A stretch of 64,000 bases of DNA from Alistipes sp. (GTDB lineage: Bacteria; Bacteroidota; Bacteroidia; Bacteroidales; Rikenellaceae): NCBI GenBank assembly GCA_017646625.1, contig JAGCMF010000030.1:37428-101427 (forward strand), written 5' to 3'. Below the pieces are notes generated by a model. That model had not been told where the DNA came from. It saw nothing but the letters and a program-made list of their open reading frames with translations, and did not search any database. A program made the translations under genes and the position numbers. Shown one piece after another: positions 9,936 to 64,000 of this stretch (position 1 is its first letter; each line of letters opens with the position of its first letter).

Positions 9936-10364
9936 ATGAAACGTGCAATTTTATTTTTCTCGATACTCCTTATTGTTGCTGTCACACTCGGTGGTTGTTG
10001 CGACTGTCGCAAGCGTTCGAAGTTAGAAAAACCCCTTGTTGGCACCACCTGGCAGCTTGTGCAACTCATGGGCACGGAGGTTGCTGCACAGGGTGATAGC
10101 TATACCCTTGTACTTCATGACAATGGCACAATATCTGGTGCTGGCGACTGCAACCGTATAACCGCAACATATACCATAACACCCTCACGTAGCTTCGTCA
10201 TCTCGAACCTTGGCGCCACACGCCGCCTATGTCCCAACCCCGACCTTGAGAATGCATACTACGACATGCTCGAGAGTGTCACACACTACGAGATGGACGC
10301 AGAGAATATGCTGTTGTTGAGTAACGGCACTTTAGTCGCCATAATGAAAGTTGTGGAACAGTAA
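9936..10364 (+). CDS. META-domain (HslJ-like) lipoprotein
   Basis: 142 residues from the ATG at 9936. An ATG-less extension upstream runs through the promoter and is rejected. The N-terminus MKRAILFFSILLIVAVTLGGC is a lipoprotein signal with Cys21 as the lipid site. The mature part follows the META/HslJ pattern: GTTWQLVQLMG, a calycin-like beta fold with NRITATYTI, and a cysteine in RRLCPNPD. Family members such as E. coli HslJ are linked to outer membrane or heat and novobiocin tolerance, with no known catalytic activity. A repeat element begins 5 bp after the stop codon. Confidence 0.88.
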   Translation: MKRAILFFSILLIVAVTLGGCCDCRKRSKLEKPLVGTTWQLVQLMGTEVAAQGDSYTLVLHDNGTISGAGDCNRITATYTITPSRSFVISNLGATRRLCPNPDLENAYYDMLESVTHYEMDAENMLLLSNGTLVAIMKVVEQ

Positions 10365-10369
10365 CAAAG

Positions 10370-10491
10370 AGAGAGTGAATAAGAAGTGTATTTTGTCGTT
10401 ACGCTTGCCCTCAAAATGCTCATTTACGCCCAGTAAACTCCGCTTTTTCGGGCTTCGCAAGCCTAAAACTACATCTTTTTATTCACTCTCT
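10370..10491. repeat. MITE-like repeat, family B, copy 1 (short)
   Basis: About 122 bp bounded by a 13-bp inverted repeat (AGAGAGTGAATAA at 10370-10382, complement at 10479-10491). The core, GCTCATTTACGCCCAGTAAACT followed by CCGCTTTTTCGGGCTTCGCAA, recurs almost unchanged in the longer copy at 22035-22355. It begins 5 bp after the stop of the META-lipoprotein gene. No coding capacity. Confidence 0.85.
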
Positions 10492-10499
10492 TATGTTAT

Positions 10500-10538
10500 G
10501 GGGACTGGCTATGTTACTTTTTAGTCAGCCCCTTTTTT
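10500..10538 (+). terminator. Intrinsic terminator after the META-lipoprotein gene
   Basis: Stem of 11 bp with one bulge and one G-T pair (10500-10511 with 10522-10532) followed by six T. Its loop and right arm resemble the terminator at 23803-23834. Confidence 0.75.
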
Positions 10539-16985: not shown

Positions 16986-18173
16986 ATGTACGGTAAATTT
17001 CAGCAGCATTTGCAGAATGAGTTGGCCGAGATTAAGGCCGCAGGTTTGTACAAGACCGAGCGCATCATCGAGTCACCTCAGCGTGCAGAGATCGACGTGG
17101 CAAACCGCCCAGTGTTGAACTTCTGCGCTAACAACTATTTGGGTCTTTCAGACAACCAGCGTCTTATCGACGCAGCAAAGCGTGCTATGGACGAACGTGG
17201 CTTCGGTATGTCGTCAGTACGTTTCATCTGCGGTTGCCAGGATATGCACAAGGAGCTTGAGAAGGCTATTGCTGACTACTTCGGCACCGAGGATACTATC
17301 CTCTATGCTGCATGTTTCGACGCTAATGGTGGTGTCTTCGAGCCATTGTTCACTGCCGAGGATGCTATCATCTCTGATGCTCTCAACCACGCCTCTATCA
17401 TCGACGGTGTACGTCTCTGCAAGGCACAGCGCTACCGCTATGCTAATGCCGATATGGCAGAGCTCGAGGAGTGCTTGAAGCAGGCACAGGCACAGCGTTT
17501 CCGCATCATCGTAACTGACGGTGTGTTCTCTATGGATGGTAATGCTGCACCACTCGACAAGATTTGCGAGCTCGCAGAGAAGTACGATGCTCTCGTTATG
17601 GTTGACGAGTGCCACTCTGCAGGTGTTCTTGGTAAGACAGGTCGCGGTATCACAGAGCTCTATGACCTCCGTGGTAAGGTTGATATCCTCACAGGTACTC
17701 TCGGTAAGGCCTTTGGTGGTGCTGTAGGTGGCTTCACAACAGGTCGCAAGGAGATTATCGACATGCTTCGTCAGCGTTCACGTCCTTACCTCTTCTCTAA
17801 CTCATTGCCACCCGCAGTCGTAGGTGCCTCTATCGAGATGTTCAAGATGCTCGAGGAGAGTGATGCACTTCACGATCAGCTCGTAGCAAACGTTGAGCAC
17901 TTCCGCACAAAGATGATTGCTGCAGGCTTCGATATTAAGCCTACAGAGTCTGCTATCTGCGCAGTTATGCTCTACGACGCAAAGCTCTCACAGGACTTCG
18001 CTGCCGAGCTCCAGCAGGAGGGTGTCTTCGTTACAGGTTTCTACTACCCAGTAGTACCAAAGGGTCAGGCACGTATCCGTGTTCAGGTATCTGCAGGTCA
18101 CACTACCGAGCAGCTTGATCGTTGCGTTGAGGCGTTTATCAAGGTTGGTAAGAAGCTTGGTGTCCTCAAGTAA
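16986..18173 (+). CDS. kbl: Glycine C-acetyltransferase (2-amino-3-ketobutyrate CoA ligase)
   Basis: 395 residues, the typical length. An alpha-oxoamine synthase (PLP fold I): Lys241 in TGTLGKAFGG binds PLP, Asp207 and His210 in VDECHSAG contact the cofactor, and TERIIESPQ and NNYLGLS mark the Kbl subgroup. It cleaves 2-amino-3-ketobutyrate with CoA into glycine and acetyl-CoA during threonine breakdown. Serine palmitoyltransferase has the same fold, but the N-terminal signature fits Kbl better. No threonine dehydrogenase gene is adjacent. Its codon use (many GCA, CGT codons) looks like that of a well-expressed gene. The TAA stop codon is the start of a 128-bp palindromic repeat. Confidence 0.92.
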   Translation: MYGKFQQHLQNELAEIKAAGLYKTERIIESPQRAEIDVANRPVLNFCANNYLGLSDNQRLIDAAKRAMDERGFGMSSVRFICGCQDMHKELEKAIADYFGTEDTILYAACFDANGGVFEPLFTAEDAIISDALNHASIIDGVRLCKAQRYRYANADMAELEECLKQAQAQRFRIIVTDGVFSMDGNAAPLDKICELAEKYDALVMVDECHSAGVLGKTGRGITELYDLRGKVDILTGTLGKAFGGAVGGFTTGRKEIIDMLRQRSRPYLFSNSLPPAVVGASIEMFKMLEESDALHDQLVANVEHFRTKMIAAGFDIKPTESAICAVMLYDAKLSQDFAAELQQEGVFVTGFYYPVVPKGQARIRVQVSAGHTTEQLDRCVEAFIKVGKKLGVLK

Positions 18174-18299
18174 TTTCTTGTGATAAGGGGTCATCTTCGA
18201 CTCTTCAATCAACGCCACCAATGGGACGTACGTCAAGTACTACCCATCGGTGGCTTTTTCATGTCAGAGCCAAATCTGACGCCCTTCTGACAAGAAATT
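18172..18299. repeat. 128-bp nested palindromic repeat, family A, copy 1
   Basis: Outer arms AATTTCTTGT...(18172-18181) and ...ACAAGAAATT (18290-18299) are exact complements and extend imperfectly to about 20 bp. Inside lies a hairpin GCCACCAATGGG/CCCATCGGTGGC (18214-18254, one mismatch) followed by TTTTT, so it can act as a terminator. The first AA belongs to the TAA stop codon of kbl. Confidence 0.9.
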
Positions 18300-18300
18300 T

Positions 18301-18385
18301 AATTTCTCGTGATAAGAGGTCATTCTCGACCTCTCAAATCAATGCCACCAATGTGCTCCATTGGTGGCATTTTTATCTCGTGTAG
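18301..18385. repeat. Truncated family A repeat, copy 2, with terminator hairpin
   Basis: It begins AATTTCTCGTGATAAGAGGT directly behind copy 1 and follows the family for about 40 bp. It then carries a perfect 12-bp hairpin ATGCCACCAATG/CATTGGTGGCAT (18342-18370) and TTTTA. The right outer arm is missing. Confidence 0.8.
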
Positions 18386-18449
18386 AAAGGAAATAAGGGT
18401 CAGAAAAGGTCAAAAAAGGGCAGAAGGGTCAAAAAGGTAAAAACAAAAG

Positions 18450-18584
18450 TCCGCGACAACGCCCTACCTTTTATGCCCTTTTATGACGCTTTCTGCCCCT
18501 TGGCGCCATACACAGCATCCGCGACAACGCCCTACCTTTTATGCCCTTTTATGACGTTTTATGCCCCTTGGCGCATAAACAGCA
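18450..18584. repeat. Tandem pair of family C repeats
   Basis: Two copies of a 67-68 bp unit (18450-18517, 18518-18584) beginning TCCGCGACAACGCCCTACC and containing TTTTATGCCC and TTTTATGACG. A third, inverted copy lies at 58808-58859. The preceding 18391-18449 is a purine-rich low-complexity stretch. No gene is visible from 18174 to 18695. Confidence 0.8.
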
Positions 18585-18651
18585 AGCCCAGAAAAATCCT
18601 CTATGATACTCTCTTTTTTCTGTTACTGTAGTCAGATATTATAAAAAAATG

Positions 18652-19152: not shown

Positions 19153-22032
19153 ATGGAGAAGCAGAGTCTCTACCTTATCGACGCCTATGCGTTGATATTC
19201 AGATACTACTACGCCTTCATGGGGCGCCCCATGCGCAACCGTGATGGCCTTAATACATCTGTTGTCTTCGGCTTCGTCAAGTTCCTTCGCGACATCCTAC
19301 GCCGTGAGAAGCCCGACCTTGTGGGTGTCGCCTTCGACCCTCCTGGTGGCAGCTTCCGCCGCGACATATTCCCCGAGTATAAGGCTAACCGACCACCCAC
19401 ACCCGAGGATATCATCATCTCGGTGCCCTATGTTAAGCGACTTCTTGAGGCCATGTGCATCCCCATCTTGGAGGTTGAGGGCTTCGAGGCTGACGATGTT
19501 ATAGGCACGCTGGCGAAGCGTGGTGCCGAGGCGGGCTATAGGGTCTTCATGGTTACCCCCGATAAGGACTATTGTCAGCTTGTTGATGACAACTGCGTCA
19601 TCTACCGCCAGAAGGGTGATGCCATAGAGATTATAGATAGGGAGGCCATAGAGGCGAAGTATGGATTCACAGACCCGGCTCTCGTATGCGATATGCTTGC
19701 GTTGTGGGGCGATAGTGCGGATAACATCCCTGGTGTGCCAGGCATCGGCGAGAAGGGTGCTGCGAAGCTTGTGAGGGAGTGGGGTGCTGTGGAGAGCATC
19801 CTTGCCAACACAGATAAGATCGGTGGTAAGACGGGTAAGAATCTTGAGGCGTGGGGCGATAAGTTGTTGCTGTCGAAGGAGTTGGCGAAGATACGCCTCG
19901 ACGTGCCCGTGGCACTTGACGAGTTAGCACTCAAGGTGTGCGAGCCTAACTACACATCCCTCAAGGCGCTATATGCCGAGCTCAACTTTAGCTCTTTCCT
20001 CCGCGACCTGGAGAATGTGTCGCCTGTCGAGGAGCCTATGTCGGCACCAACGCAGGCACCGCAGACACAGCTTCAGGAGGTGTCGCGTGCCAAGGCCGAG
20101 ATGAAGCGTCGTGCGCGTCTCGAGGGTCAGGGCGACCTCTTTGCTGCCTTCGCTGCACCAGCGGCTGATAGCGGTGTAGTGGAGAGTGCTACAGTGGAGA
20201 GTATTGAGGATGATGAGCCAGCTATGCAGAGCATAACCACGACACCTCATGACTACCGCACGGTGCGTAGTGCCGATGAGTTACGCGAGGTGTGCAACCA
20301 TATATCTACCTATGATGAGTTCTGCTTCGACACCGAGACTACGGGTCTCGACATACAGATGTGCAGCATCGTGGGTATGTCGTTGAGTGTCGAGCCACAC
20401 AAGGCGTGGTATGTACCCTTTGCGAATGGCGATAGTGCCGAGTACCCTGCGATATTGAGGCCTTTATTTGAGAATGAGGCTATCACGAAGGTGGGTCAGA
20501 ACATGAAGTTCGACATTATGGTTCTTCGCAACATAGGCATCGAGGTGCGTGGTCGTAAGATAGACACCATGCTGATGCACTACCTCATTGACTCGGAGGC
20601 ACGTCACAACATGGACTTCCTCGCTGTGCGCTACCTCAACTATACGCCCATATCTATCGAGACGCTTATAGGCAAGGGTGCCAAGCAGCTGACCATGGAT
20701 ATGGTGGGCATAGACCGCGTTGCGGAGTACGCCTCGGAGGATGCAGATGTCACGCTGCGCCTTAAGCATGCGCTGTATGGGGAGCTTGACAAGCTCGGCA
20801 TGGTGGAGCTATATCACACCATCGAGGAGCCTATGATTGATGTCTTGGCAGATATGGAGCTTGCGGGTGTACGCATTGACAGTGAGGCACTTGCCGCCTA
20901 TGGTGTTGAGCTACGTGCACTCCTCGAACGCCTGCAGGCCGAGGTGCGCGAGCTTGCCGATGAGCCCGAGCTAAACATCAACTCGTCGCGCCAGCTTGGC
21001 GAGGTTCTCTTTGCGAAGTTGCGCATTAGCGAGAAGCCCAAGATGACCAAGACGAAGCAGTTCTCTACGGAGGAGGAGTATCTGCAGGGCTTTGCCCACG
21101 ACTTCCCCATCGTAAGTAAGATATTGGAGTATAGGGGAGTCAAGAAGTTGCTCTCCACATATGTCGAGGCGCTGCCCAACCTTGTGAGTAGCAAGACGGG
21201 GCGCATACATACGTCGTATAACCAGGCCATCACTGCTACGGGACGTCTGTCGTCGACAAATCCTAACTTGCAGAATATACCTATCCGCGATGAGCTCGGC
21301 AAGCCTATCCGTGCAGCCTTTGTGGCGTCGGACGACGAGCATGTTATCGTCTCTGCCGACTACTCGCAGATTGAGCTACGCCTCATGGCGCATATGAGTG
21401 GTGATGAGGCACTTATAGAGGCTTTTAACTGTGGTGAGGATATACATGCTGCCACCGCTGCACGCCTCTATGGCAAGGGTGTTACGGAGGTTACTGCTGA
21501 CGAACGACGTCGTGCCAAGACGGCAAACTTCGGCATCATATATGGCATCTCGGCATTTGGTCTTGCCCAGCGCCTCGACATCCCTAATCGTGAGGCGAAG
21601 AGTCTCATAGATAGCTATTTCGAGAGTTACCCGGGTGTTAAGAGCTATATGGATGGTGCCATGCAGGGTGCTACCAACAGAGGCTATGTTGAGACTATGT
21701 TTGGTCGTCGACGCATACTCCGAGATATAAACTCCTCAAATCGTACTGTGCGTGGCATCGCAGAACGTAACGCCATAAATGCGCCGTTGCAGGGCTCTGC
21801 TGCCGACATCATGAAGCTTGCGATGATAGAGATAGCTCGTCGCTTCCGTGAGGAGGGCATAGCCTCGAAGATGATTATGCAGGTGCATGATGAGGTTGTC
21901 ATCGACACGCTACGTACGGAGCAGGATGCCGTCATGCGCATCGTCAAGGAGGCTATGGAGAGTGTTGCCCACTTGCGTGTTCCGCTTGTTGCGGAGGTTA
22001 GTTATGGTGATTCGTGGTTAGCAGCACATTAG
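19153..22032 (+). CDS. polA: DNA polymerase I
   Basis: 959 residues from the ATG at 19153; an in-frame extension back into queD is rejected because it overlaps that gene's coding end. Order of domains: 5'-3' exonuclease (1-300: LIDAYALIFR, DVIGTLAKRG), a low-complexity linker rich in Ala, Glu and Gln (about 290-370), a 3'-5' proofreading exonuclease with intact FDTETTGLD (about 391), and the polymerase with motif A DYSQIELR (about 736), the O helix RRRAKTANFGIIYG (about 785) and motif C QVHDEVV (about 910). All catalytic acids are present, so all three activities are expected. It fills gaps, removes RNA primers and serves in repair. Confidence 0.97.
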   Translation: MEKQSLYLIDAYALIFRYYYAFMGRPMRNRDGLNTSVVFGFVKFLRDILRREKPDLVGVAFDPPGGSFRRDIFPEYKANRPPTPEDIIISVPYVKRLLEAMCIPILEVEGFEADDVIGTLAKRGAEAGYRVFMVTPDKDYCQLVDDNCVIYRQKGDAIEIIDREAIEAKYGFTDPALVCDMLALWGDSADNIPGVPGIGEKGAAKLVREWGAVESILANTDKIGGKTGKNLEAWGDKLLLSKELAKIRLDVPVALDELALKVCEPNYTSLKALYAELNFSSFLRDLENVSPVEEPMSAPTQAPQTQLQEVSRAKAEMKRRARLEGQGDLFAAFAAPAADSGVVESATVESIEDDEPAMQSITTTPHDYRTVRSADELREVCNHISTYDEFCFDTETTGLDIQMCSIVGMSLSVEPHKAWYVPFANGDSAEYPAILRPLFENEAITKVGQNMKFDIMVLRNIGIEVRGRKIDTMLMHYLIDSEARHNMDFLAVRYLNYTPISIETLIGKGAKQLTMDMVGIDRVAEYASEDADVTLRLKHALYGELDKLGMVELYHTIEEPMIDVLADMELAGVRIDSEALAAYGVELRALLERLQAEVRELADEPELNINSSRQLGEVLFAKLRISEKPKMTKTKQFSTEEEYLQGFAHDFPIVSKILEYRGVKKLLSTYVEALPNLVSSKTGRIHTSYNQAITATGRLSSTNPNLQNIPIRDELGKPIRAAFVASDDEHVIVSADYSQIELRLMAHMSGDEALIEAFNCGEDIHAATAARLYGKGVTEVTADERRRAKTANFGIIYGISAFGLAQRLDIPNREAKSLIDSYFESYPGVKSYMDGAMQGATNRGYVETMFGRRRILRDINSSNRTVRGIAERNAINAPLQGSAADIMKLAMIEIARRFREEGIASKMIMQVHDEVVIDTLRTEQDAVMRIVKEAMESVAHLRVPLVAEVSYGDSWLAAH

Positions 22033-22034
22033 TA

Positions 22035-22355
22035 AAGAGAGTGAATAAAGAGTGTATTTCGTCGTTCTTTGTTGATATAACAGCGCATCTACTTCCGCTA
22101 ACGAATTATCTCATCAATGGGCAGTACGCCAAAGTACAGCCCATCGCCTCGAAATTCGCCGAGCAAAGTATCTGCACTATTCTCTCAACAAATTTGCTTG
22201 CCACGGGAATGCTCATTTACGCACAGTAAACTCCGCTTTTTCGGGCTTCGCAACGCCGCGAGTAAGCGAGAGCAGAGGCCGCTTGTGGACTATGCCGAGC
22301 GTGAGCGGTGAAAAGGAACTTAAGCCTAAAACTACATCTTTTTATTCACTCTCTT
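22035..22355. repeat. MITE-like repeat, family B, copy 2 (long)
   Basis: 321 bp bounded by a perfect 15-bp inverted repeat (AAGAGAGTGAATAAA at 22035-22049, complement at 22341-22355). It shares its core and both ends with the copy at 10370-10491 but has about 130 bp more on the left and a 68-bp insertion on the right. It starts 2 bp after the polA stop. It contains the hairpin ATGGGCAGTACG...GTACAGCCCATC also found in family A. Short open frames here do not look coding. Confidence 0.85.
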
Positions 22356-22409
22356 AAGAATATTGAAGTGACCCCAAAAGTTTGGACAAAAAACTTTTGG
22401 GGTTTCATT

Positions 22410-35106: not shown

Positions 35107-36951
35107 CTACTCGGCGTCGAGGTTTAGGCGTTCAATCATCTCTGCGAGGCGGTCGTTCTTGTTCATCAGGTGCTTGAGCCTATCCTCGAGGGTTATTGGT
35201 CGTGCCGCCTTGATGTGCTCGTTCACTATCACCGCTATCTCTATGAGGCCCTTCACGCCACTTATCTCGGCAATCTGCTTCTGTAGGTCTATCTTGTCGC
35301 GCATTATGTCGTCATGCCACTCGCGCGATGGCACCGTGATAGTTATCACGTTACCCTCTACTGTCATCGACTGGAATATTATTCCTGTGCGTCGCTTTGT
35401 GCGTACCAGCTCGTCGATTATTTTGTCGCGTGCCACCATCAGCTTCTCCTCGCAGTGGGGGTCTATCTGTATCGTTTTTGCTGCCGCCAACTCCTCTGCC
35501 ACCATCTCCGATGCTGTCTTCGCATCGCCATTCAGCAGGTCAGATATAGATACGCTTGTGCGTAATGCTCGTGTTGTGCGCTGCACCTTGCGTGCCGCCT
35601 CCACCTCTGGCGCTTGTGCCGCCCCCACGCTTGCGGGTTGTGATGCCGCCGCGCTTTGTTGTGCCACTACTTTTGGTGTCGCCACCTCCGCCCTTGTGGG
35701 TTGTGGCGCTGCCGCACTTTGTTGTGCCACCTCCGCCCTTGCTGGTTGTGGTGCCGCCGCGCTTTGTTGTGCCGCCCCTACGTTTGCGGGTTGTGGTGCT
35801 GGCTCGAGGGGTGGTAGGCTAAAGTTGGTCTCGAAGGAGAGCTCTGCCGTTACATCATTTTTTTTTTGACCGAGACCTGCTATCTTCATAAGTCCCAGTT
35901 CAACAAGCAAACGCTGATTTGACGATTGTCGTATTTTGCCATCCGCCTCCGTGAGCAGTGATATTGCGCCGAAGAGGAGTGCCTCGGGGCATTGCGCTGC
36001 CTGTTGTTTATATCTCTCAACGAGTGTTCCTGTGAACTCCACGAGGGTTATTGCTGGGCCCTTTGCCATGAGCAGGTCACGCATATGTGCGTTAAGGCCG
36101 GCGATGAACACCTGTGGCGAGAAGCCACGGCATAGCACATCGTCGAAGCGCATGAGGGCCTCTATGTAGTTACCGTGTAGGAGTAGCTCTGTTATGGTGA
36201 AGTATGTGTCGTAGTCGAGCACGTTGAGTGTTGCTGCCACATCCTTGTAGTTTAGCTTGTTGCCGCAGAACGACACCGCCTTGTCGAACATAGATAGTGC
36301 ATCGCGCATACCGCCATCAGCCTTGTGGGCGATGAGGTTTAGCGCCTCGTCATCGGCCTCGACACCCTCCTTCGTTGCTATGTGACGCAGATACTCCACG
36401 CCATCCTCGACCTTTATGCGGTTGAAGTCATATATCTGGCAACGTGATAGGATTGTGGGTATAATCTTATGCTTCTCTGTTGTTGCGAGGATGAATATTG
36501 CATGATGTGGTGGCTCCTCAAGGGTCTTGAGGAAAGCGTTGAAGGCGGCTGTAGATAGCATGTGCACCTCGTCGATAACGAATACCGAGTATCTGCCCTG
36601 CTGTGGTATTATGCGCACCTGCTCAATGAGGTTGCGGATGTCGTCTACCGAGTTGTTAGATGCGGCATCCAGCTCGTGCACATTCAGTGAACGACCCTCG
36701 TTGAATGAACGGCACGACTCGCACTCGTTGCACGCCTCACCCGCCTGTGGGTTGAGGCAGTTTATAGCCTTGGCGAAGATACGCGCACATGTTGTCTTAC
36801 CCACGCCACGGGGACCGCAGAAGAGGTAGGCATGAGCCAGCTGACCACGTTCTATGGCGTTCTTGAGTGTTGAGGTTATATGTCGCTGGCCAACGACCGA
36901 TGCGAAGGTCGCGGGGCGATACTTACGTGCTGATACAATAAAATTCTCCAT
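35107..36951 (-). CDS. dnaX: DNA polymerase III gamma/tau subunit
   Basis: 614 residues. Walker A GPRGVGKT (46-53), zinc cysteines Cys65, Cys74, Cys77 and Cys80, Walker B with DEVH (127-130) and sensor SRC (169-171) form the AAA+ clamp-loader part; domain III ends with LVELGLMKIAGLG near residue 360. A linker of Ala/Gln/Pro-rich repeats (AAPQPARAEVAQQS type) follows at about 375-450, then the tau-specific C-terminal domain. A run of ten A at 35858-35867 falls exactly between domain III and the linker, with stop codons just behind it in both other frames. A shorter gamma product is therefore likely. The first codon lies only 7 nt from a -7-like box. Confidence 0.96.
   Translation of the reverse strand: MENFIVSARKYRPATFASVVGQRHITSTLKNAIERGQLAHAYLFCGPRGVGKTTCARIFAKAINCLNPQAGEACNECESCRSFNEGRSLNVHELDAASNNSVDDIRNLIEQVRIIPQQGRYSVFVIDEVHMLSTAAFNAFLKTLEEPPHHAIFILATTEKHKIIPTILSRCQIYDFNRIKVEDGVEYLRHIATKEGVEADDEALNLIAHKADGGMRDALSMFDKAVSFCGNKLNYKDVAATLNVLDYDTYFTITELLLHGNYIEALMRFDDVLCRGFSPQVFIAGLNAHMRDLLMAKGPAITLVEFTGTLVERYKQQAAQCPEALLFGAISLLTEADGKIRQSSNQRLLVELGLMKIAGLGQKKNDVTAELSFETNFSLPPLEPAPQPANVGAAQQSAAAPQPARAEVAQQSAAAPQPTRAEVATPKVVAQQSAAASQPASVGAAQAPEVEAARKVQRTTRALRTSVSISDLLNGDAKTASEMVAEELAAAKTIQIDPHCEEKLMVARDKIIDELVRTKRRTGIIFQSMTVEGNVITITVPSREWHDDIMRDKIDLQKQIAEISGVKGLIEIAVIVNEHIKAARPITLEDRLKHLMNKNDRLAEMIERLNLDAE
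35858..35867 (-). other. A10 slippage site in dnaX
   Basis: The minus strand reads GGT CAA AAA AAA AAT GAT GTA. One extra A, or a -1 ribosomal shift, gives AAA TGA; one fewer A, or a +1 shift, gives ATG ATG TAA. Both produce a protein of about 365 residues, which corresponds to gamma. Confidence 0.75.
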
Positions 36952-50913: not shown

Positions 50914-52146
50914 ATGAAAGAGGATAAGGTAAGTATTAAGCGCCGTCGTGAGGAGCCACAGCCCACCGTCGAGGAACGTGAGACACGTGCTGTGCTCGTG
51001 GCAGTAATCCGCGATAGCCAAAACCCCGATACCGCAGCAGAGTATCTCGACGAGTTAGAGTTCCTCGCCGAGACCGCAAACATAAAGAGTGTACGTCGCT
51101 TCACGCAGCGTCTGCCACAGCCCATGTCGAAGATATATGTGGGCCCCGGTAAGCTCGAGGAGATTGCCGAGTGGTGCAAGGAGCAGGAGATAGATGTCGC
51201 CATCTTCGATGATGAGCTCTCGCCAGCGCAGACACGTAACATAGAGCAGGCCATGCCTTGTCGTGTCATCGACCGTACGCGTCTTATCCTCGACATCTTC
51301 ATGTCGAGAGCACAGACAGCATATGCCAAGACACAGGTGGAGTTGGCGCAGAATGAGTATATGTTGCCACGCCTTGCGGGTCTGTGGACACACCTCGAAC
51401 GTCAGCGTGGTGGCACGGGAACACGTGGTGGTGCTGGTGAGCGCGAGATTGAGACCGACCGCCGTATTGTGCGTAATAGGATAACGAAGCTGAAGGAGGA
51501 TCTCAAGAAGATAGACCGCCAGATGGCTGTGCAGCGTTCCAACAGAGGCCAGATGGTGCGTGTGGCATTGGTAGGCTATACAAATGTCGGTAAGTCGACA
51601 CTCATGAACCTTCTATCCAAGAGTGAGGTCTTTGCCGAGAATAAACTCTTCGCAACGCTTGACACCACGGTGCGCAAGGTCGTCTTCGACAATCTCCCCT
51701 TCCTCATGTCCGACACCGTGGGCTTCATCCGTAAACTCCCCACGCAGCTTATCGAGTCCTTCAAGTCGACTCTCGATGAGGTGCGCGAGGCGGACCTGTT
51801 GTTGCATGTTGTCGACATCTCGCACCCAAGCTTCGAGGATCAGATAGCTGTCGTTAAGCAGACGCTGGCAGATATTGGTGCTGGTGATAAGCCCACCTTC
51901 CTTGTCTTCAACAAGATTGATGCCTACACCTATACCCCCAAGGAGGAGGATGACCTCACGCCAGCAACGAAGGAGAATATGTCGCTTGATGACCTCAAGA
52001 AGAGCTGGATAGCGAAGGCTAACACACCATGTATCTTCATCTCGGCACGTGATAAGACGGGTGTCGAGAAGCTACGTTCCGACCTCTATGGCATGGTACG
52101 TGAGATACATGCTGGTCGTTATCCCTTCAACAACTTCCTCTACTAA
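50914..52146 (+). CDS. hflX: GTPase HflX
   Basis: 410 residues. The N-terminal HflX domain (YVGPGKLEEIAEW, FDDELSPAQTRNIE), a coiled linker with Gly/Arg-rich GGTGTRGGAGEREIETDRR, then a G domain with GYTNVGKST (about 220), DTVGFIRKLP and NKID. HflX binds the ribosome and rescues stalled or hibernating 70S particles. It is followed by upp after 26 bp. Confidence 0.95.
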   Translation: MKEDKVSIKRRREEPQPTVEERETRAVLVAVIRDSQNPDTAAEYLDELEFLAETANIKSVRRFTQRLPQPMSKIYVGPGKLEEIAEWCKEQEIDVAIFDDELSPAQTRNIEQAMPCRVIDRTRLILDIFMSRAQTAYAKTQVELAQNEYMLPRLAGLWTHLERQRGGTGTRGGAGEREIETDRRIVRNRITKLKEDLKKIDRQMAVQRSNRGQMVRVALVGYTNVGKSTLMNLLSKSEVFAENKLFATLDTTVRKVVFDNLPFLMSDTVGFIRKLPTQLIESFKSTLDEVREADLLLHVVDISHPSFEDQIAVVKQTLADIGAGDKPTFLVFNKIDAYTYTPKEEDDLTPATKENMSLDDLKKSWIAKANTPCIFISARDKTGVEKLRSDLYGMVREIHAGRYPFNNFLY

Positions 52147-52172
52147 TCGTCTAACCCATAAACCAAAAGAGT

Positions 52173-52826
52173 ATGGTAAAGATACTTAATAAGGAGAATA
52201 CTATTCTCAATAAGTTCCTTGCGCAGATGCGCGATAAGTCTATCCAGCGTGACTCTATGCGCTTTCGCCGTAATATGGAACGTGTTGCCGAGATTATGGC
52301 ATACGAGATCTCGAAGAAGCTTAACTATAAGACCGAGATGGTTGAGACACCTCTCGGCATTGCCGCTGTGGAGTCTATCAGCGATAAGGTTGTCATCGCC
52401 ACAATCCTGCGTGCAGGTCTCCCCTTCCACCAGGGCTTCCTCAACTACTTCGACGATGCCGATAACGGCTTCGTGTCGGCATACCGTAAGAGTCGTCCCG
52501 ATGGTAGCTTCATCGTAGATGTGGAGTATGTCTCTACCTCATCACTCTCTGGTAAGACTCTCATCCTCGTTGACCCTATGCTCGCCACAGGCACCTCCCT
52601 TATGCTTGTCTACGATGCTCTCATACGTCGTGCTGGAGAGCCCGAGCATACACACTTTGCCGCCGTCTTCGCCTCCGAGCAGGGTGTCGACTATGTCATG
52701 AAGCGCATCAACCCCGATAAGTGTACCCTCTGGTGTGCTGCTGTCGATGAGGAGCTAACCTCCAAGTCCTACATTGTGCCAGGCATTGGTGATGCTGGGG
52801 ATTTGGCATACGGCGTCAAACTCTAA
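52173..52826 (+). CDS. upp: Uracil phosphoribosyltransferase
   Basis: 217 residues. PRPP-binding motif VDPMLATGTS (about 132-141), N-terminal RDKSIQRDSMRFRRN and C-terminal PGIGDAGDLAYG, which contacts uracil, are intact. It salvages uracil to UMP. The TAA stop codon forms the first bases of a 128-bp palindromic repeat. Confidence 0.94.
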   Translation: MVKILNKENTILNKFLAQMRDKSIQRDSMRFRRNMERVAEIMAYEISKKLNYKTEMVETPLGIAAVESISDKVVIATILRAGLPFHQGFLNYFDDADNGFVSAYRKSRPDGSFIVDVEYVSTSSLSGKTLILVDPMLATGTSLMLVYDALIRRAGEPEHTHFAAVFASEQGVDYVMKRINPDKCTLWCAAVDEELTSKSYIVPGIGDAGDLAYGVKL

Positions 52827-52952
52827 TTTCTTGTGATAAGGGGTCATTCTCGACCTCTCAATCATTCGGCTGAATGGGAAATACGTTTAGTATGTCCCAT
52901 CCAGCCGAATTTCTTTATCGAGGCCACATCTAACCCCTTCTAACAAGAAATT
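52825..52952. repeat. 128-bp nested palindromic repeat, family A, copy 3
   Basis: Outer arms at 52825-52834 and 52943-52952 are exact complements, with imperfect extension to about 20 bp. An inner hairpin (52864-52910) pairs ATTCGGCTG with CAGCCGAAT, ATGGGA with TCCCAT and ATAC with GTAT. The first AA is part of the upp stop codon. Nearly identical to the copy at 63796. Confidence 0.9.
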
Positions 52953-52980
52953 AGGTGTGCGCTTGGGAAGGTCTTTGTGT

Positions 52981-53125
52981 GATAGAGAGATTAGGGAGAT
53001 TAGGGAAGTTAGGGAGGTTAGAGAGTTTAGGGATTATGGACTATCCTCCCTAAATTCCCTAAATTCCTTATCCTCCTTAAACTCCTTAATCCTTAAGCTC
53101 CTTATAATTCCCTAAACTCGTCTCT
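52981..53125. repeat. Nine-nucleotide periodic purine/pyrimidine block
   Basis: Five units of TTAGGGANN (about 52991-53033) are followed by eight or nine units of TCCYTAANN (53043-53118), their approximate complement. The two halves could form a long imperfect hairpin. No coding or known element features; no gene from 52827 to 53203. Confidence 0.75.
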
Positions 53126-53147
53126 TTTGCATCATTACCAACAAACA

Positions 53148-53179
53148 TGGGGTGTCCAACAAGTTATGTGGACACCCCA
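53148..53179. terminator. Terminator after the acyl-CoA dehydrogenase gene
   Basis: Perfect 10-bp stem TGGGGTGTCC (53148-53157) with GGACACCCCA (53170-53179), 12-nt loop; ends the minus-strand unit. Confidence 0.7.
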
Positions 53180-53203
53180 TTTGTCATATGTAACAACTAT
53201 TGC

Positions 53204-54913
53204 CTATGCGAAGAGCTCTACGTCAGAGGCATCCGAAGCATTGATATATGATGCAGCCTCGGAGATCTTCTTCGCTGCATACTTAACGAATACCTTCGTT
53301 GGGTTGAGGTAGTCGGCCTCGCACTCTGCTGCCTGGCGCAACATGATGTGTGAGATGATGATGTAGCCAGCAATCTCAACAAGACGGCGTGAGTGGAACT
53401 CCTTATATCCCGCAGCCTCCTTGTCGATGCTCTCAACACGTGCTACAACCTGCTCATACACCTTGCGGAGCTCAACAAGCTGCTCACCCATAGCCTTCGT
53501 AGCCTCGGTGCGCTCATTCTCCTCATAGCGCATTATCTGCTCGAGGTATGTGCCCTTTGTCACATGGTTGATGGCAGCAACAACCTGTAGCTGTGTTGTA
53601 CCCTCGTAGATGTTCATGATACGAGCATCACGATAGAGACGTTCACAGGCGTAGTCCTTCATATATCCCGAGCCGCCATGTATCTGTATAGAGTCGTAGG
53701 CAACCTCGTTAGCATACTCCGATGCGAACATCTTTGCAAGAGGTGTGAAGCCATCAGCAAGACGGTTGTAGAACTTCATCTCCTGGCGTTCCTCGGCCTC
53801 CAAAGAACGGTCGTGAGAGATGTGTGTTAGCTGCTTGTATATATCCACGAAGCGTGCTGTCTCATAGAGGAGTGCACGTGAGGCGATAGTCTTGGCCTCC
53901 ATGTTCTTAAGCATCTCGCGTACGGCAGCGAACTCGATGATAGCCTTGCCAAACTGCTCACGTTCGCCAGCATACTTCAATGCCTCGCGGTATGCAGCCT
54001 CCGAGAGGCCTGTTGACTGTGCTGCGATGCCGAGACGTGCGGCATTCATGAGTGACATCACATACTTGATAAGACCCATCTTACGGTCGCCAACGAGCAC
54101 TGCAGGGGCATTGTTGAAGACCAACTCGCATGTTGGCGAGCCCTTGATGCCGAGCTTATTCTCTATGCGGCGCACCTTAACGCCACCATCGCGCTTGTCG
54201 TAGATGAGCATAGAGAGGCCACGAGCATCCTTCGTGCCCTCCTCTGTACGTGCGAGCACCAATGAGATGTCGCCATCGCCATTTGTGATGAATCGCTTAC
54301 AGCCGTTAAGACGCCATACACCAGCCTCCTCATCCCATGTAGCCTTGAGCATCACGGCGCCGAGGTCAGAGCCTGCATCTGGCTCTGTGAGGTCCATGGC
54401 GCAAGTCTCGCCTGCCGATACACGTGGCAAGAAGCGTTCCTTGATATCCTCTGTTGCGAACTCGTTTATTGTCTCTGCGCAGTCCTGAAGACCCCATATA
54501 TTCTCGAAGCCTGCGTCGGCACGTGCCACCATCTCGTTAGCCATGGCGAAGCATGTGACAGGCATGTTAAGACCGTTATACTTGCGTGGTAGTGTCATGC
54601 CACCGAGGCCTGCAGCATTCAAGGCCTCGAGGTTACGAACGGTGCCCGAGGCGTACTCCACGTGGTCGTTCACCACGCGAGGGCCCTCATGGTCAACACT
54701 CTCGGCATTTGCGGCGATGACCTCACCACAGACGTCACCCACAATCTCGAGCACACGCTTGTATGAGTCGAGAGCATCCTCTGCGTCCTGGGGTGCATAG
54801 TCATAGTCGGCAGCATCGGCGAAGTTGCGCTCCTTGAGCTCGATGATTCTCTTCATCATAGGATGAGAGAGGTGATACTGCAAATCTTTGTTATCGGTAT
54901 AGAAATTAGCCAT
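53204..54913 (-). CDS. Acyl-CoA dehydrogenase
   Basis: 569 residues: the standard fold of about 400 residues plus a C-terminal helical extension of about 150, as in ACAD9/VLCAD-like and many anaerobe enzymes. CAMDLTEPDAGSD binds FAD, GSPTCELVFNN closes the middle beta domain, and the catalytic Glu is in IYEGTTQLQ (about 434). It oxidises an acyl-CoA, or reduces an enoyl-CoA, with electrons exchanged through the flavoprotein encoded by the two genes upstream of it (7 bp to etfA). The chain length is unknown. Confidence 0.92.
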   Translation of the reverse strand: MANFYTDNKDLQYHLSHPMMKRIIELKERNFADAADYDYAPQDAEDALDSYKRVLEIVGDVCGEVIAANAESVDHEGPRVVNDHVEYASGTVRNLEALNAAGLGGMTLPRKYNGLNMPVTCFAMANEMVARADAGFENIWGLQDCAETINEFATEDIKERFLPRVSAGETCAMDLTEPDAGSDLGAVMLKATWDEEAGVWRLNGCKRFITNGDGDISLVLARTEEGTKDARGLSMLIYDKRDGGVKVRRIENKLGIKGSPTCELVFNNAPAVLVGDRKMGLIKYVMSLMNAARLGIAAQSTGLSEAAYREALKYAGEREQFGKAIIEFAAVREMLKNMEAKTIASRALLYETARFVDIYKQLTHISHDRSLEAEERQEMKFYNRLADGFTPLAKMFASEYANEVAYDSIQIHGGSGYMKDYACERLYRDARIMNIYEGTTQLQVVAAINHVTKGTYLEQIMRYEENERTEATKAMGEQLVELRKVYEQVVARVESIDKEAAGYKEFHSRRLVEIAGYIIISHIMLRQAAECEADYLNPTKVFVKYAAKKISEAASYINASDASDVELFA

Positions 54914-54920
54914 TGCCTTC

Positions 54921-55940
54921 TTACTTTGAATTCTGTTTGTAATACTTAATCATCTTGGGGATTACCTCCTCGACACTACCTGTGATGGCGTAGTCGGCAA
55001 TCTTGTTGATGGGGGCTTCAGGGTCGGTGTTTATAGAGACGATCATCGCCGAGCCATCCATGCCTGCTGTATGCTGAATCTGTCCCGAGATACCGCAAGC
55101 GATATATAGCTTGGGGCGTACGGTGACGCCTGTCTGGCCTATCTGTCGTTCATGCTCCGTGAAGCCGGCATCTACGGCAGCACGTGAGGCACCTACCTCG
55201 CCACCCAATACGTTTGCCAACTCGTGAACGAGCTTGAAGCCCTCCTTCGAGCCTACGCCGTAGCCACCAGCAACGATGACAGAGGCACCCTTGATGTTTA
55301 TCTTACGTTCCTCGATGTGACGTTCCACGATGCGCACCGCGAGGTCTGTATCCTTAACCATTGGCTGCCAGTTGATCTCGCGCACCTCTCCTGCTGCGGG
55401 TGTTGCGAGCTCCTCCTTGCGCATTACACCCTCGCGCACTGTTGCCATCTGTGGGCGGCACTCGGGGTTTACGATTGTGGCGATGATGTTACCACCAAAT
55501 GCGGGGCGAATCTGGTATAGTAGTGAGTCATACTCCTTGCCTGTCTTGGCATCCTTATGCTCGCCTATGACGAGCTCTGTGCAGTCTGCCGTAAGGCCGC
55601 TGTGGAGTGCTGATGACACACGTGGTGCGAAGTCGCGACCTACGGGTGTTGCGCCGAAGAGTGCTATCTGTGGCTTCTCCTGCTCGATGAGACCTACCAT
55701 CACGGCTGTGTGTGGCAGTGTGCGGAAGGGGGCAAATATCTCGTTGTCAGCAACCCACACTGTGTCGGCACCATACTTCGCCAACTCTGGGGCTACACCC
55801 TTAACATCCTTACCTATTACCACCGCCTCGAGTTTCACGCCAAGCGTATTAGCCAACTCGCGGCCTTTGGTCAGAAGCTCCAACGATACGTCGGCAATCT
55901 CCCTCTCCTCAATCTCGATATATACAAATACGTTATTCAT
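54921..55940 (-). CDS. etfA: Electron transfer flavoprotein alpha subunit
   Basis: 339 residues. The N-terminal half shows the nucleotide-fold segment; the C-terminal FAD domain has GASVIVAGGYGVGSKEGF, GASRAAVDAGF, GQTGVTVRPKLYIACGISG and INTDPEAPINKIADY. It carries the FAD that exchanges electrons with the acyl-CoA dehydrogenase. Follows etfB by 18 bp. Confidence 0.95.
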   Translation of the reverse strand: MNNVFVYIEIEEREIADVSLELLTKGRELANTLGVKLEAVVIGKDVKGVAPELAKYGADTVWVADNEIFAPFRTLPHTAVMVGLIEQEKPQIALFGATPVGRDFAPRVSSALHSGLTADCTELVIGEHKDAKTGKEYDSLLYQIRPAFGGNIIATIVNPECRPQMATVREGVMRKEELATPAAGEVREINWQPMVKDTDLAVRIVERHIEERKINIKGASVIVAGGYGVGSKEGFKLVHELANVLGGEVGASRAAVDAGFTEHERQIGQTGVTVRPKLYIACGISGQIQHTAGMDGSAMIVSINTDPEAPINKIADYAITGSVEEVIPKMIKYYKQNSK

Positions 55941-55958
55941 ACTCTTACTCTTAAGCGT

Positions 55959-56834
55959 TTAACCTATCGTGTGGCTCGCAATGAGCTCCTGCATTAGAGC
56001 CTCTATATCCTTATCCTCTGCGGTAAGTCTCTTTGCCTCCTTTGCCTGGAACACCACGTTCTCAATCTTCTTAACCTTTGTAGGTGAGCCTGCGAGACCC
56101 AACTGCTCGGCATCGGGGTTCACGTCGGCAGCTGCGTACTCCACGATGTGGAGGTATGGGCGTGCCTCGATGAACTCCTGTGCCTTGGCGTCGGCAGCCT
56201 GGAGCTCCGATGTTGCCAGAGCATACTTAAACTTCATCACACGCTTCGCGTTACGTGGGCGGCACTCCTTGGCTGATGAGTTCACGGTGATTACTGCGGG
56301 CAGTGGTGCTACGACAACCTCCGAGCCACGTTCCAAGCGGCGCTTGATTGTCACCTCGCCCTCCTTGATGTCAACAAGCTCCTCGGCATATGTCACCTGT
56401 GGCATGTCGAGCTTCTGGGCAACCTGTGGGCCTACCTGTGCAGTATCGCCGTCGATAGCCTGGCGGCCGGCAACGATGATATCTGGGTTGATCTTACGTA
56501 GTGCGCACGATAGTGCATACGATGTAGCCAATGTATCAGAGCCTGCAAATTCACGACCCGAGAGGAGGTAGCCACCGTCGGCACCGCGGAACATAGCCTC
56601 GCGGATGATGTCGGCAGCACGCTGTGGTCCCATGGTGAGCACGTGTACTGTAGCCTCGCCAAGACGATCTTTCATCTCCAATGCCATCTCGAGGGCATTC
56701 AAGTCTTCGGGGTTGAAAATTGCTGGTAGAGCAGCACGGTTTACTGTGCCCTCCGGAGTCATGGCATCCTTGCCGACATTACGAGTGTCGGGCACCTGTT
56801 TTGCCATAACCACGATTCTTGTTACTTTTTGCAT
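55959..56834 (-). CDS. etfB: Electron transfer flavoprotein beta subunit
   Basis: 291 residues from the ATG at 56834; an in-frame extension to 56864 lacks support. VVMAKQVPDT at the start and the nucleotide-binding ADTLATSYAL / IVAGRQAIDGDTAQVGP region are typical of EtfB. Together with etfA and the dehydrogenase it forms the unit etfB-etfA-acd. A -7 box TATCTTTG lies on the minus strand at 56877-56884. Confidence 0.95.
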   Translation of the reverse strand: MQKVTRIVVMAKQVPDTRNVGKDAMTPEGTVNRAALPAIFNPEDLNALEMALEMKDRLGEATVHVLTMGPQRAADIIREAMFRGADGGYLLSGREFAGSDTLATSYALSCALRKINPDIIVAGRQAIDGDTAQVGPQVAQKLDMPQVTYAEELVDIKEGEVTIKRRLERGSEVVVAPLPAVITVNSSAKECRPRNAKRVMKFKYALATSELQAADAKAQEFIEARPYLHIVEYAAADVNPDAEQLGLAGSPTKVKKIENVVFQAKEAKRLTAEDKDIEALMQELIASHTIG

Positions 56835-56876
56835 AATAATATCAATTATGTGTACTTGTATCAAATTTTAATCGGC

Positions 56877-56884
56877 CAAAGATA
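56877..56884 (-). promoter_or_regulatory. -7 box of the etfB-etfA-acd operon
   Basis: Minus-strand TATCTTTG, perfect, 43 bp before the etfB ATG. Confidence 0.55.
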
Positions 56885-56991
56885 CTTATTTTTGTCTAAA
56901 AGACCATCGATTTTGTCTACTATTTTATCTAAAATATCTAAATATCCTTGACTGTTAATAAGTTACGTTATTTGTCGATTTTTCTATTTTG

Positions 56992-58149
56992 CTAACCTTT
57001 AATGTCTATGCCTATGCGGCGATAGCAATTCTGAAGGTTGTATGCCATGAGCTCGGGTCTGAAGCGTGAGGCATACTCTCTGCCCGCCTCTGCCATCGCC
57101 TTGCGCATATCCTCATCTATGTATAGCTGCTCCACGGCACGTGCCAGCTCCTCGTGGTCTGTTGCCGAGGTGTATATCGAGTCGGGGCCTCCCGCCTCTT
57201 CGAGGCTCGAGCCACGTGATGCCACAACGGGCACGCCCATTGTCAGTGCCTCAACAATCTCTGTGGAGAAGCCTTCGTAGCGTGAGGGCATGACGAAGAT
57301 CATCGCCTTGCTGTATATCGCTGGTATATCCTCCTCGGCAGCACCGTAGAGCATGTGTACCCTATCCTGCAGGCCGAGTGACTTTATGCGGTGTAGCACA
57401 TGCTCGGTGTGTGATGTTGCGCGACCCACGCAGACAAGATGTAGGTCGGTAGATATGTTGGGCATAGCCTCTATGATGTGTGCTATGTTTTTGTAGGCAT
57501 GCTGCGTGCCACGGAAGAGCATGTATCTCTCGGGGAGGTTGTAGCGTGCTACCACCTCGTTGATCTTCTGCTCGGTGATGGGCTTGTTGAAGCGCTGGTG
57601 GCAACCGCGGTATATTACATCTATCTTGTCGCTGTCGATGTGTAGTAGGTGTGCTATATCGCGTTTTACACACTGGCTTACCGCTACTATGCGATCAGCG
57701 CGACGTAGTGTCTCGGCCATCGCTATGCGGCGATATATGCTTGAGGGGCGTGTGCTGTGGCCACGGAGGCGTAGGAAGTCGAGGCTGTGTACGGTCACTA
57801 CGCTGCGTATGTTGCGGCGTGCAAGGCCGTAGGGTAGCGTTGTTGTGAGGCTGTGGTATAACTCCACATCGCCGCGTGTCATGTCACGACCAATGGGTAG
57901 TAGGTGCCATAGCCATGGTACCTTGCGCCATATGCCACCATCGGGGAGCAGTGACTCCACGTTGTGGCGCTGTGCCAGAGCATCATACTCGTCGTTATCC
58001 TCGCTGCGTGGCACATACATCCTGAAGTAGCAGTAGCGTGGGTATGCATCCGCCATTGCCCCTATCACATAGCGGGCATAGCAGCTCAACGACGTATCTC
58101 CCACGTTGGCGTTGCGGGCATCGAAGCCTATGGTGTGATTTCGCTTCAT
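56992..58149 (-). CDS. Glycosyltransferase family 4
   Basis: 385 residues, GT-B fold. The N-domain has TVHSLDFLRLRG and DRIVAVSQCVKRDI; the C-domain has YMLFRGTQHAYKN, MPSRYEGFSTEIVEAL (the E-x7-E-like donor motif) and GVPVVASRGSSLEEAGG. It transfers a sugar from a nucleotide donor with retention, in the cytoplasm; acceptor unknown. Alone, with no glycan cluster near it. Confidence 0.93.
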   Translation of the reverse strand: MKRNHTIGFDARNANVGDTSLSCYARYVIGAMADAYPRYCYFRMYVPRSEDNDEYDALAQRHNVESLLPDGGIWRKVPWLWHLLPIGRDMTRGDVELYHSLTTTLPYGLARRNIRSVVTVHSLDFLRLRGHSTRPSSIYRRIAMAETLRRADRIVAVSQCVKRDIAHLLHIDSDKIDVIYRGCHQRFNKPITEQKINEVVARYNLPERYMLFRGTQHAYKNIAHIIEAMPNISTDLHLVCVGRATSHTEHVLHRIKSLGLQDRVHMLYGAAEEDIPAIYSKAMIFVMPSRYEGFSTEIVEALTMGVPVVASRGSSLEEAGGPDSIYTSATDHEELARAVEQLYIDEDMRKAMAEAGREYASRFRPELMAYNLQNCYRRIGIDIKG

Positions 58150-58210
58150 ACTCCTTATCTTGCTCTATCTTCCTTCTGTTATATGCCTACACACGGAGGC
58201 ATGTGTATGC

Positions 58211-58234
58211 GCGCACCTATTCGCGCGGGTGCGC
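58211..58234 (-). promoter_or_regulatory. GC-rich hairpin in the leader of the family 4 glycosyltransferase gene
   Basis: GCGCACC (58211-58217) pairs with GGTGCGC (58228-58234). It lies inside the predicted leader (about 58150-58240). Confidence 0.5.
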
Positions 58235-58246
58235 ACACTCGGACTA

Positions 58247-58277
58247 CAAATGTAGTATTTTTTACTTTGTGAAGCAA
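58247..58277 (-). promoter_or_regulatory. Promoter of the family 4 glycosyltransferase gene
   Basis: Minus-strand TACATTTG (58247-58254) with TTG (58275-58277) 20 nt upstream. Confidence 0.65.
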
Positions 58278-58535
58278 AATTTAATCGAAAAATTGTGTTG
58301 TTTTGCTATCATTAGGACTTTTTTCCTTACGAATCCAGCACCCCTTTTCTCCCTATTGTTGGGTCTTGTCTCTCCCTTTTTGTCGCCGTTATCACTCTTT
58401 AGACGTAGAATTTTTAGAGATTTACCTCTTTTCTTCACATTGTGTTAATATACACATATACAGATATATAACACACTTTGGAAGATGAGTAATGAAAAAT
58501 ATTTTAAAAATTATTGAAATTTTTTAATAAAATAC

Positions 58536-58566
58536 TTGCGTGATTAAAAGATTGTCTTTACCTTTG
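58536..58566 (+). promoter_or_regulatory. Promoter of the candidate small RNA
   Basis: TTG (58536-58538), 20-nt spacer, TACCTTTG (58559-58566). No coding region follows for 450 bp. Upstream, 58278-58535 is AT-rich with no gene seen. Confidence 0.7.
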
Positions 58567-58572
58567 CAGCGA

Positions 58573-58713: not shown

Positions 58714-58807
58714 ATATGTCTATGAGGTAATTTTTGAGTAATGCGTTGTCTCAAACCTTTCTAACCTTTTTGCCTCTTGTGCCCTTTCTGCCCTTTTTCA
58801 TTCTCGG

Positions 58808-58859: not shown

Positions 58860-58948
58860 TCGTTGTCACTTTTTTTGATGTCTCTCTTTTTTACTCTTTG
58901 TATCTGCATTTTTGCTCGTTGTGCTCTAATATTAAGAAAAATTTTTAT

Positions 58949-63422: not shown

Positions 63423-63797
63423 ATGACACAGGAGAAGACCCGTTATAACGATGCCGAGCTCGAAGAGTTCCGCTTATTGATAGAGGAGAAATTGGCGTCA
63501 GCACGTGCTGACTATGAGATGTTGCGCAGCGCTACGAGCAACGAGAATGATACAGAGGACTCATCGCCAACCTTTAAGGTTATGGAGGAGGGTGCCACAA
63601 CACTCTCGCGTGAGGAGTATGGTAACCTTGCGCAGCGTCAGGCGAAGTTTATACGTAACCTCGAGATGGCGCTTGTGCGCATCAAGAATAAGACATATGG
63701 CATATGTAAGACCACAGGAAAGCTTATACCTCGTGAACGTCTTTTGCGTGTACCACATGCTACCGAGTGTATTGAGGCGAAGACTGCTCGCAAGTAA
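63423..63797 (+). CDS. TraR/DksA-family protein lacking the full zinc site
   Basis: 124 residues. N-terminal coiled-coil helices (DAELEEFRLLIEEKLASARADYEML; long second helix RQAKFIRNLEMALVRIKN) and the DksA C-terminal fold (TYGICKTTGKLIPRERLLRVPHATECIEAK). The canonical four-cysteine finger is reduced to two cysteines (GIC and TEC). DksA proteins bind the RNA polymerase secondary channel and tune promoters with ppGpp. In related Bacteroidetes this gene sits between ileS and lspA, so lspA may lie just outside the window. Its TAA stop starts a palindromic repeat. Confidence 0.88.
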   Translation: MTQEKTRYNDAELEEFRLLIEEKLASARADYEMLRSATSNENDTEDSSPTFKVMEEGATTLSREEYGNLAQRQAKFIRNLEMALVRIKNKTYGICKTTGKLIPRERLLRVPHATECIEAKTARK

Positions 63798-63923
63798 TTT
63801 CTTGTGATAAGGGGCCATTCTCGACCTCTCAATCATTCGGCTGAATGGGAAATACGCCAAGTATGTCCCATCCAGCCGAATTTCTTTATCGAGGCCAAGC
63901 CTAACCCCTTCTGACAAGAAATT
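63796..63923. repeat. 128-bp nested palindromic repeat, family A, copy 4
   Basis: Same length and arms as the copies at 18172 and 52825 (63796-63805 with 63914-63923). Inner hairpin at 63835-63881 differs from copy 3 mainly in the loop (GCCAAG against GTTTAG). The first AA is part of the stop codon of the dksA-like gene. Confidence 0.9.
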
Positions 63924-63948
63924 GGTATCACGATGGTTAGGTAGGGAC

Positions 63949-64000
63949 TATTTGAGCTCTTCAATCAACGCCACCAATGGGACGTACGTCAAGTACTACC
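63949..64000. repeat. Start of a further family A copy, cut by the window edge
   Basis: From CTCTTCAATCAACGCC onward it matches copy 1 (18201-18244) base for base as far as the window goes. The left arm is degenerate. It repeats the doublet arrangement seen at 18172-18385. Confidence 0.8.

Follow-up and report, generated by a model that had tools for sequence, protein, structure and literature searches.

The palindromic YPAL (RU-2) elements of Yersinia, about 168 bp long and intergenic, are described as having filled and empty sites, internal inverted repeats and duplications of 3-26 bp, with targets that span or adjoin dyad symmetries and perhaps an effect on the RNA stability of upstream transcripts (PMC2229807). 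REP/REPIN repeats are palindromes of 20-40 bp that are tagged GTAG or CGTC and lie mainly downstream of coding regions (PMC3733652), and MITEs such as ERIC/RU-1, RUP, Correia, and Nezha are short, carry terminal inverted repeats, and occur in many copies (PMC2229807, PMC3733652). Palindromic candidate structured RNAs with predicted intrinsic terminators have been described from gut Bacteroidetes, for example HMP2_4205 of 132 bp, in a source whose main text does not use the term "stop codon" (PMC8040213). Some TAACTGA repeats do overlap stop codons; unlike the element considered here, however, they are short direct repeats found mostly before start codons (PMC4679880).

The window analyzed here, a stretch of 64,000 nucleotides (C31:37428-101427) from a 1.87-Mb Alistipes draft genome that lacks about 9% of the genome, contains copies of a palindromic element joined to stop codons. 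By analogy, and going by description, YPAL is the nearest described case, although here the inverted repeats are terminal, there is no clear duplication, and the junction is the stop codon itself. De Gregorio reportedly noted in 2006 that YPAL tend to sit closely downstream of stop codons. The likeness to REP/RAYT systems lies in the repeated extragenic palindromes downstream of genes, whereas the present element is several times longer, is joined exactly to the stop codon, has no GTAG/CGTC tag, and comes without a Y1 transposase. It differs from ERIC/RU-1, RUP, Correia, and Nezha in its fixed orientation, stop-codon placement, and co-varying internal structure, and neither a parent insertion sequence nor a target duplication was found for it. 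RNAs of the HMP2_4205 type are alike in size, palindromic form, and predicted terminators, and may include relatives, the comparison being one of descriptions only. A literature search, with most subscription journals outside its scope, yielded no named stop-codon-fused element of this kind. To our knowledge, no other short mobile palindrome joins so strictly to stops, in one orientation, in many species and with differing ends. The element is filed as a MITE-like palindromic repeat whose new feature is the strict stop-codon junction.

A sequence-only reading of the window had reported three copies of 128 bp, and their positions and lengths were confirmed, as was the junction at which each follows the T of a TAA stop (Table 1). 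All three are real, but the window also holds a partial copy and two divergent ones, and since the latter lie some distance past their stops, the copies in the window are not all at T|AA. The genes that bear the full copies encode an aminotransferase-fold (kbl-like) protein, a uracil phosphoribosyltransferase (upp), and a DksA/TraR zinc-finger protein; the name kbl was taken over from the earlier reading, its sole support being an aminotransferase class I/II match. At up to three mismatches, the left-end pattern TTTCTTGTGATAAGRGG matched the window seven times, at four left ends and at three right arms, where 0.16 matches were expected. Rfam gave no match at gathering score in the window, and the nine matches obtained at E up to 1 in 52700-53100 were all below gathering.

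Table 1. Copies of the element and adjoining repeats, in window coordinates.
Feature	Position	Strand	Remarks
Element copy 1	18172..18299	+	The kbl-like gene 16986-18173 has its TAA stop completed by the two bases that open this copy; covariance model 129 bits
Partial second, tandem copy	18301..18376 (end approximate)	+	Left end and terminator-like hairpin; right arm absent
Element copy 2	52825..52952	+	Completes the TAA stop of upp 52173-52826; 130 bits
Tail, then long hairpin made up of short degenerate repeats (AGGGAGATTAGGGA... / ...TCCCTAAATTCCC)	52953..53110 (end approximate)	+	3' of copy 2
Element copy 3	63796..63923	+	The DksA/TraR-like gene 63423-63797 has its TAA stop completed by this copy; 126 bits
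Tail and start of a second, divergent unit	63924..64000 (unit cut by the window end)	+	63957-64000 matches 18201-18244 of copy 1 exactly
Divergent copy	22066..22194	+	About 36 nt past the TAG that ends the DNA polymerase I gene (polA); nested in a palindrome with other arms; 58 bits
Weak, divergent copy with other arms	10372..10489	+	About 10 nt past the TAA stop of a META-domain gene; 31.5 bits

Other repeats were observed in the same window. Gene-end palindromes of a second family, whose arms are AAGAGAGTGAATAAA.../...TTTATTCACTCTCTTA, stand directly after TAA and TAG stops at 10362-10500 and 22030-22360, and the one at 22030-22360 holds another element nested within it. At 35590-35818, five 52-nt direct repeats, 62-88% alike to the reference and at spacings of 24, 63, 45, and 45, lie within overlapping long frames on both strands.

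Placement was assessed in a census of 236 distinct left ends from the genome itself and its relatives (at most one mismatch, at least 240 nt upstream, deduplicated), the loci having been gathered via the element or two genes and not via stops. At 202 of these left ends, a frame of at least 80 codons ends at -12 to +9 nt: the junction is exactly T|AA in 145, the frame stop falls at -2 to -12 in 51, and the element's own TGA at +9 closes the frame in 6. Another 24 stand directly behind a right arm as tandem copies, and 10 are neither at a stop nor behind a right arm. TAA accounts for 194 of the 202 stops, TGA for 6, and TAG for 2, and the base before the element is mostly T. When the right end was read outward as a control, a frame ended there in 4 of 235, and the difference from the left ends (202/236) indicates that orientation is fixed. 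In most cases, the element thus lies within 12 nt of a stop in a single orientation. The proposal that the element is tied to gene ends held up: 202/236 left ends overlap or adjoin a stop, which the element supplies or abuts. Within the genome itself, blastn returned 40 matches and the left-end pattern (up to two mismatches) 39, a few of them right arms, while the reversed left-end pattern, used as a control, returned none.

Placement at stops is far above chance. On a 344-kb contig of a relative, 27 covariance-model rows were left once the better strand had been kept by hand; first copies in the vicinity of a stop make up 19 of these rows, with 16 located exactly at +1, and the remainder comprise six later copies in stacks, one weak 46-nt match, and one copy at 88330, where the simple gene finder missed a gene that in a separate comparison ends at -1. 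On this contig, the chance of a non-coding position and orientation of this kind is about 0.5% for the exact site and 4.1% within 12 nt. The next gene is convergent for 9 of the 19 first copies, compared with 70 of 284 called genes.

The covariance model, with at most 85 candidates scored per genome and weak matches liable to escape, matched 31 of 41 genomes of the genus, the source genome included (E up to 0.001). Nine genomes gave 79-85 matches, close to the 85 scored, five gave a single match, and ten gave none; because both strands of a palindrome can count, copies are fewer than model matches. Under stricter filters, with at most 57 candidates per genome for the family and 23 for the order, matches were found at 1e-4 in 5 of 61 genomes of the family, namely the source genome, one of the five further members of the genus, and three of 55 from other genera (one clear with 32 matches, two with a single one), and at 1e-5 in 2 of 149 genomes of the order, the source genome and one with a single weak match. 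Among the matches listed, at least 80 left-end loci fall in named genomes, all titled Alistipes or Rikenellaceae, and the hosts, where given, are ruminants. At E 0.001, the element had no counterpart in phage and plasmid collections; its left end had none in viral contigs, and a plasmid search with the whole upp region aligned 13 records to the first 550 bases (hflX where annotated) and none to the element. As a separate observation, G100, which belongs to another genus of the family, has the same kind of element at L378, L382, and L386, where TGA or TAA stands on the junction or close to it; among five genomes sampled from its genus, one is rich, one has a single match, and three have none.

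Genomes that match only the inner hairpin carry other arms, for example TTTTTCGATTTTATAGG or CTTTGGCGTGATAAGG. At such loci, TAG, TAA, or TGA stands just before or inside the left arm in 13 of 15, none being found in the other two. At loci from the model search, a long-frame stop lies within -6 to +9 nt of an end in 30 of 41, a count that took the strand with the nearer stop and hence says nothing on orientation (the strand so chosen is the reverse of the model's at L388 and also at L353, a locus left out of the count); junctions take the forms T|AATTT, T|AGTTT, T|GATTT, and TG|ATTTT, and the loci without a near stop are partly stacked copies or contig ends.

The copies appear to constitute a lineage-specific non-coding family, mostly 125-133 bp in length, with a long hairpin composed of several short helices and conserved internal loops. 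Its commonest ends are AATTTSTTGT/ACAASAAATT, and the terminal inverted repeats typical of MITEs are present. Folded as RNA, each of the full window copies gives one long imperfect hairpin (z of -7.7, -7.9, and -8.4). In an alignment of 65 elements made by sequence only (58 of 86 representatives plus 7 of 13 divergent ones), RNAalifold placed 24 pairs, 20 of which show changes on both sides. Paired cells amount to 91.0% versus 74.1% in shuffles and 33-48% in slid controls, and none of 500 shuffles reached any of five measures, figures that lean in the structure's favor because relatedness is not taken into account in the shuffles and the alignment that is scored also gave the structure. The outermost helix region (13 pairs, columns 3-20 with 124-142) is paired in 94.6% of cells, with 11 of its 13 pairs changing on both sides, the TAC...GTA helix at the apex is paired in 65/65, and helices 2 and 3 are paired in 79-81% of cells; throughout, loops are conserved and helices co-vary. 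The element is thus dispersed with co-varying arms, and the complementary outer arms and inner hairpin first noted by eye correspond to arms that pair and co-vary in copies that fold as long imperfect hairpins. Since the right arm is located past the inner, terminator-like hairpin, read-through RNA or events at the DNA level would most easily account for arm co-variation. A guess at a cloverleaf, made on single sequences, was dropped, the folds and the alignment giving mainly a rod-like hairpin, though copy 1 has side hairpins.

Syntenic gene ends without the element, the empty sites that the sequence-only reading proposed to seek in sister strains, do exist in relatives, so that the element is present at one species' gene end and absent from another's. 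In ten close relatives compared at kbl, the source genome included, six carry an element of some subfamily at this TAA, another three have TAATAGA at the end and run on without one, and G022 has TAG and a diverged hairpin; different subfamilies thus hold the same stop in different species. Relatives without the element do not end in TAATTTCTTG at kbl, as expected if the element supplied this sequence, but the comparison is weak at other genes, where "without" was defined by a missing left arm and left-end-only partial copies exist. An alignable stretch downstream was obtained for 33 of 119 filled/empty pairs, and in seven of the eight pairs inspected the filled genome is longer by 151-412 nt before that stretch; in the eighth (upp, L148 against L156), another palindrome occupies the site in the relative, so that the difference is 22 nt. 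This palindrome, at L156 (upp of G021), has unrelated arms (AGAAGTCGCC...CGACTTCT) and sits at a TAG stop where the source genome has copy 2. Downstream of the block at upp in the source genome, a terminator-like hairpin akin to that of the relatives persists, as judged by eye.

Orthologous ends without the arm number 159 (97 TAA, 56 TAG, and 6 TGA), or 115 after deduplication, including 40 TAG and 6 TGA; arm-less orthologs of at least 95% identity have 12 TAA and 5 TAG, and those of 90-95% have 15 TAA and 11 TAG. TAG and TGA are about as frequent here as in the background of 270 genes on the relative's contig (164 TAA, 93 TAG, and 13 TGA), and the stop therefore need not have been TAA before. 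Judged from these codons, the element probably brings its own AA, the TAG orthologs being suggestive only since stop codons flip by ordinary mutation. Comparison of interiors (224 first copies, 37 genome labels) gave 69.5% identity at orthologous sites (127 pairs), 67.4% for random cross-species pairs, and 70.8% within species (600 pairs each). Interiors at orthologous sites are hardly more alike than random ones, suggesting that sites are refilled or interiors exchanged quickly; an excess of sites common to species is not claimed, as it was by the element that loci were selected. The junctions compared showed no clear target-site duplication: right flanks vary, a TA repeat occurs at some copies only, and the boundaries are blurred by the AATT ends.

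Copies also stack in tandem. One stack of five predicted tandem copies was seen outside the window (G000:C31:17446-18081). A strict age order with the youngest copy at the stop is not claimed, since stacks of the source genome do not follow it; on the relative's contig, the first copy is the best-scoring one in the stacks scored, once by only 0.1 bit. Many copies without a right arm retain the left end and inner hairpin, which fits selection for a gene-end hairpin, and some retain little beyond the left end (by eye). Inspection by eye of the fetched left ends that have no right arm nearby revealed no autonomous copy. A tail motif and a long hairpin built of degenerate short repeats come after many elements. 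Of 12 tail matches in the contig examined, 8 lie directly behind a recognized right arm, 2 behind arm-like sequence, 1 behind a partial copy, and 1 apparently inside a gene. Long hairpins or repeats of degenerate short units were likewise noted 3' of elements at 52985-53110 and 18380-18600 of the window and in similar regions of relatives, for example TTAGGGAG units followed by CTCCCTAA units.

A role as terminator or mRNA 3' stabilizer, proposed at the outset, is plausible. At least four T occur in the 8 nt past the inner stem in 90 of 214 copies but not in the other 124, so that the terminator role is borne out only in part; at least four A occur in the 8 nt ahead of the inner stem in 63/214. 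A consensus terminator scan of 52000-64000 gave four sites, below the 8.5 of shuffles and none of them in copies 2 and 3, and scanning flagged one hairpin each in copy 1 and the partial copy.

The reading that we favor, with a probability of about one half, is that of a MITE-like, structure-recognized mobile element family acting as a gene-end module. Such an element would move at the DNA level as a hairpin or cruciform, recognized by shape and paired ends, since arm sequence varies between species, and an enzyme would serve its mobility in trans. Insertion would take place at T(A) in or just past the stop, and the element would complete the stop, usually leaving the protein unchanged (as seen at kbl; its own TGA is used in six cases). 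Retention of copies may then be due to the inner hairpin, which would serve as terminator or as the 3' end of the mRNA. A bolder form of the proposal, which we put forward only tentatively, is a class of mobile DNA that targets the in-frame stop itself, with insertion or retention coupled to translation termination, recognition by hairpin shape, and gene ends repeatedly rebuilt from exchangeable hairpin modules; it draws on the range of about 0-12 nt past the stop, the sense orientation, and the element-supplied stop.

Conserved loops amid co-varying helices, interior modules that differ at one orthologous stop, and a range that ends about 12 nt past the stop, near the ribosome footprint, whose size is comparable, could also point to a functional RNA or translation-coupled element that is needed at the stop, its position kept by selection and its copies homogenized or exchanged by recombination rather than transposed. 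We consider this doubtful, given that nine of the ten genomes of the genus without a model match retain the kbl gene, that presence and absence are found at the same gene, and that tandem stacks occur, one of five predicted copies. Less probable again, and in our judgment unlikely, is an ordinary MITE of a DDE-type insertion sequence with a TA target, its stop bias reflecting purifying selection in a densely coding genome (91% coding in the contig examined). Short terminal inverted repeats, small size, high copy number, and a preceding base that is mostly T all suit this origin, and insertion at any TA within 12 nt of empty sites would hit the stop in 65% on average, fairly close to the observed 145/196 (74%). 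Selection, however, poorly explains why only 10/236 lie elsewhere, or the single orientation, and placement stays the same where end sequences differ between species. By eye, no parent insertion sequence with the same ends was seen in the fetched loci.

The search for mobilizing enzymes covered Y1 transposase, integron integrase, and reverse transcriptase. Spread through RNA with the help of a reverse transcriptase, or recombination of the attC type catalyzed by an integron integrase, would fit the fixed sense orientation, some truncated copies that end past the inner hairpin, and the presence of an imperfect hairpin beside stop codons, attC being likewise an imperfect hairpin next to stop codons. 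RVT_1 is present in carriers such as G003, G006, G041, G045, G053, and G056, but seven element-rich genomes (the source genome G000, G011, G017, G021, G022, G051, and G054) gave no match, and the integron integrase model TIGR02249 had no hit above cut-off in 41 genomes of the genus or in 14 controls, a test hence without positive control; weaker tyrosine-recombinase matches occurred in 41/41 and 14/14. We regard such routes as very improbable. The REP/RAYT analogy of the sequence-only reading fared worst as a mechanism: the element is palindromic, extragenic, and downstream of genes, as REP/REPIN sequences mobilized by a RAYT (Y1) transposase are, but it is about 128 bp long with ends that bear no GTAG/CGTC tag, and Y1_Tnp (PF01797) was found in 0/41 genomes of the genus against 5/14 controls, which leaves this origin scarcely credible.

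The element would offer a system for asking how mobile DNA locates the ends of genes while sparing the protein, and how terminators and 3' UTRs of bacteria originate and come to be replaced. Carriers with at least 79 model matches have enough of them to shape many mRNA 3' ends, and a covariance model of the family would aid annotation of the genus.
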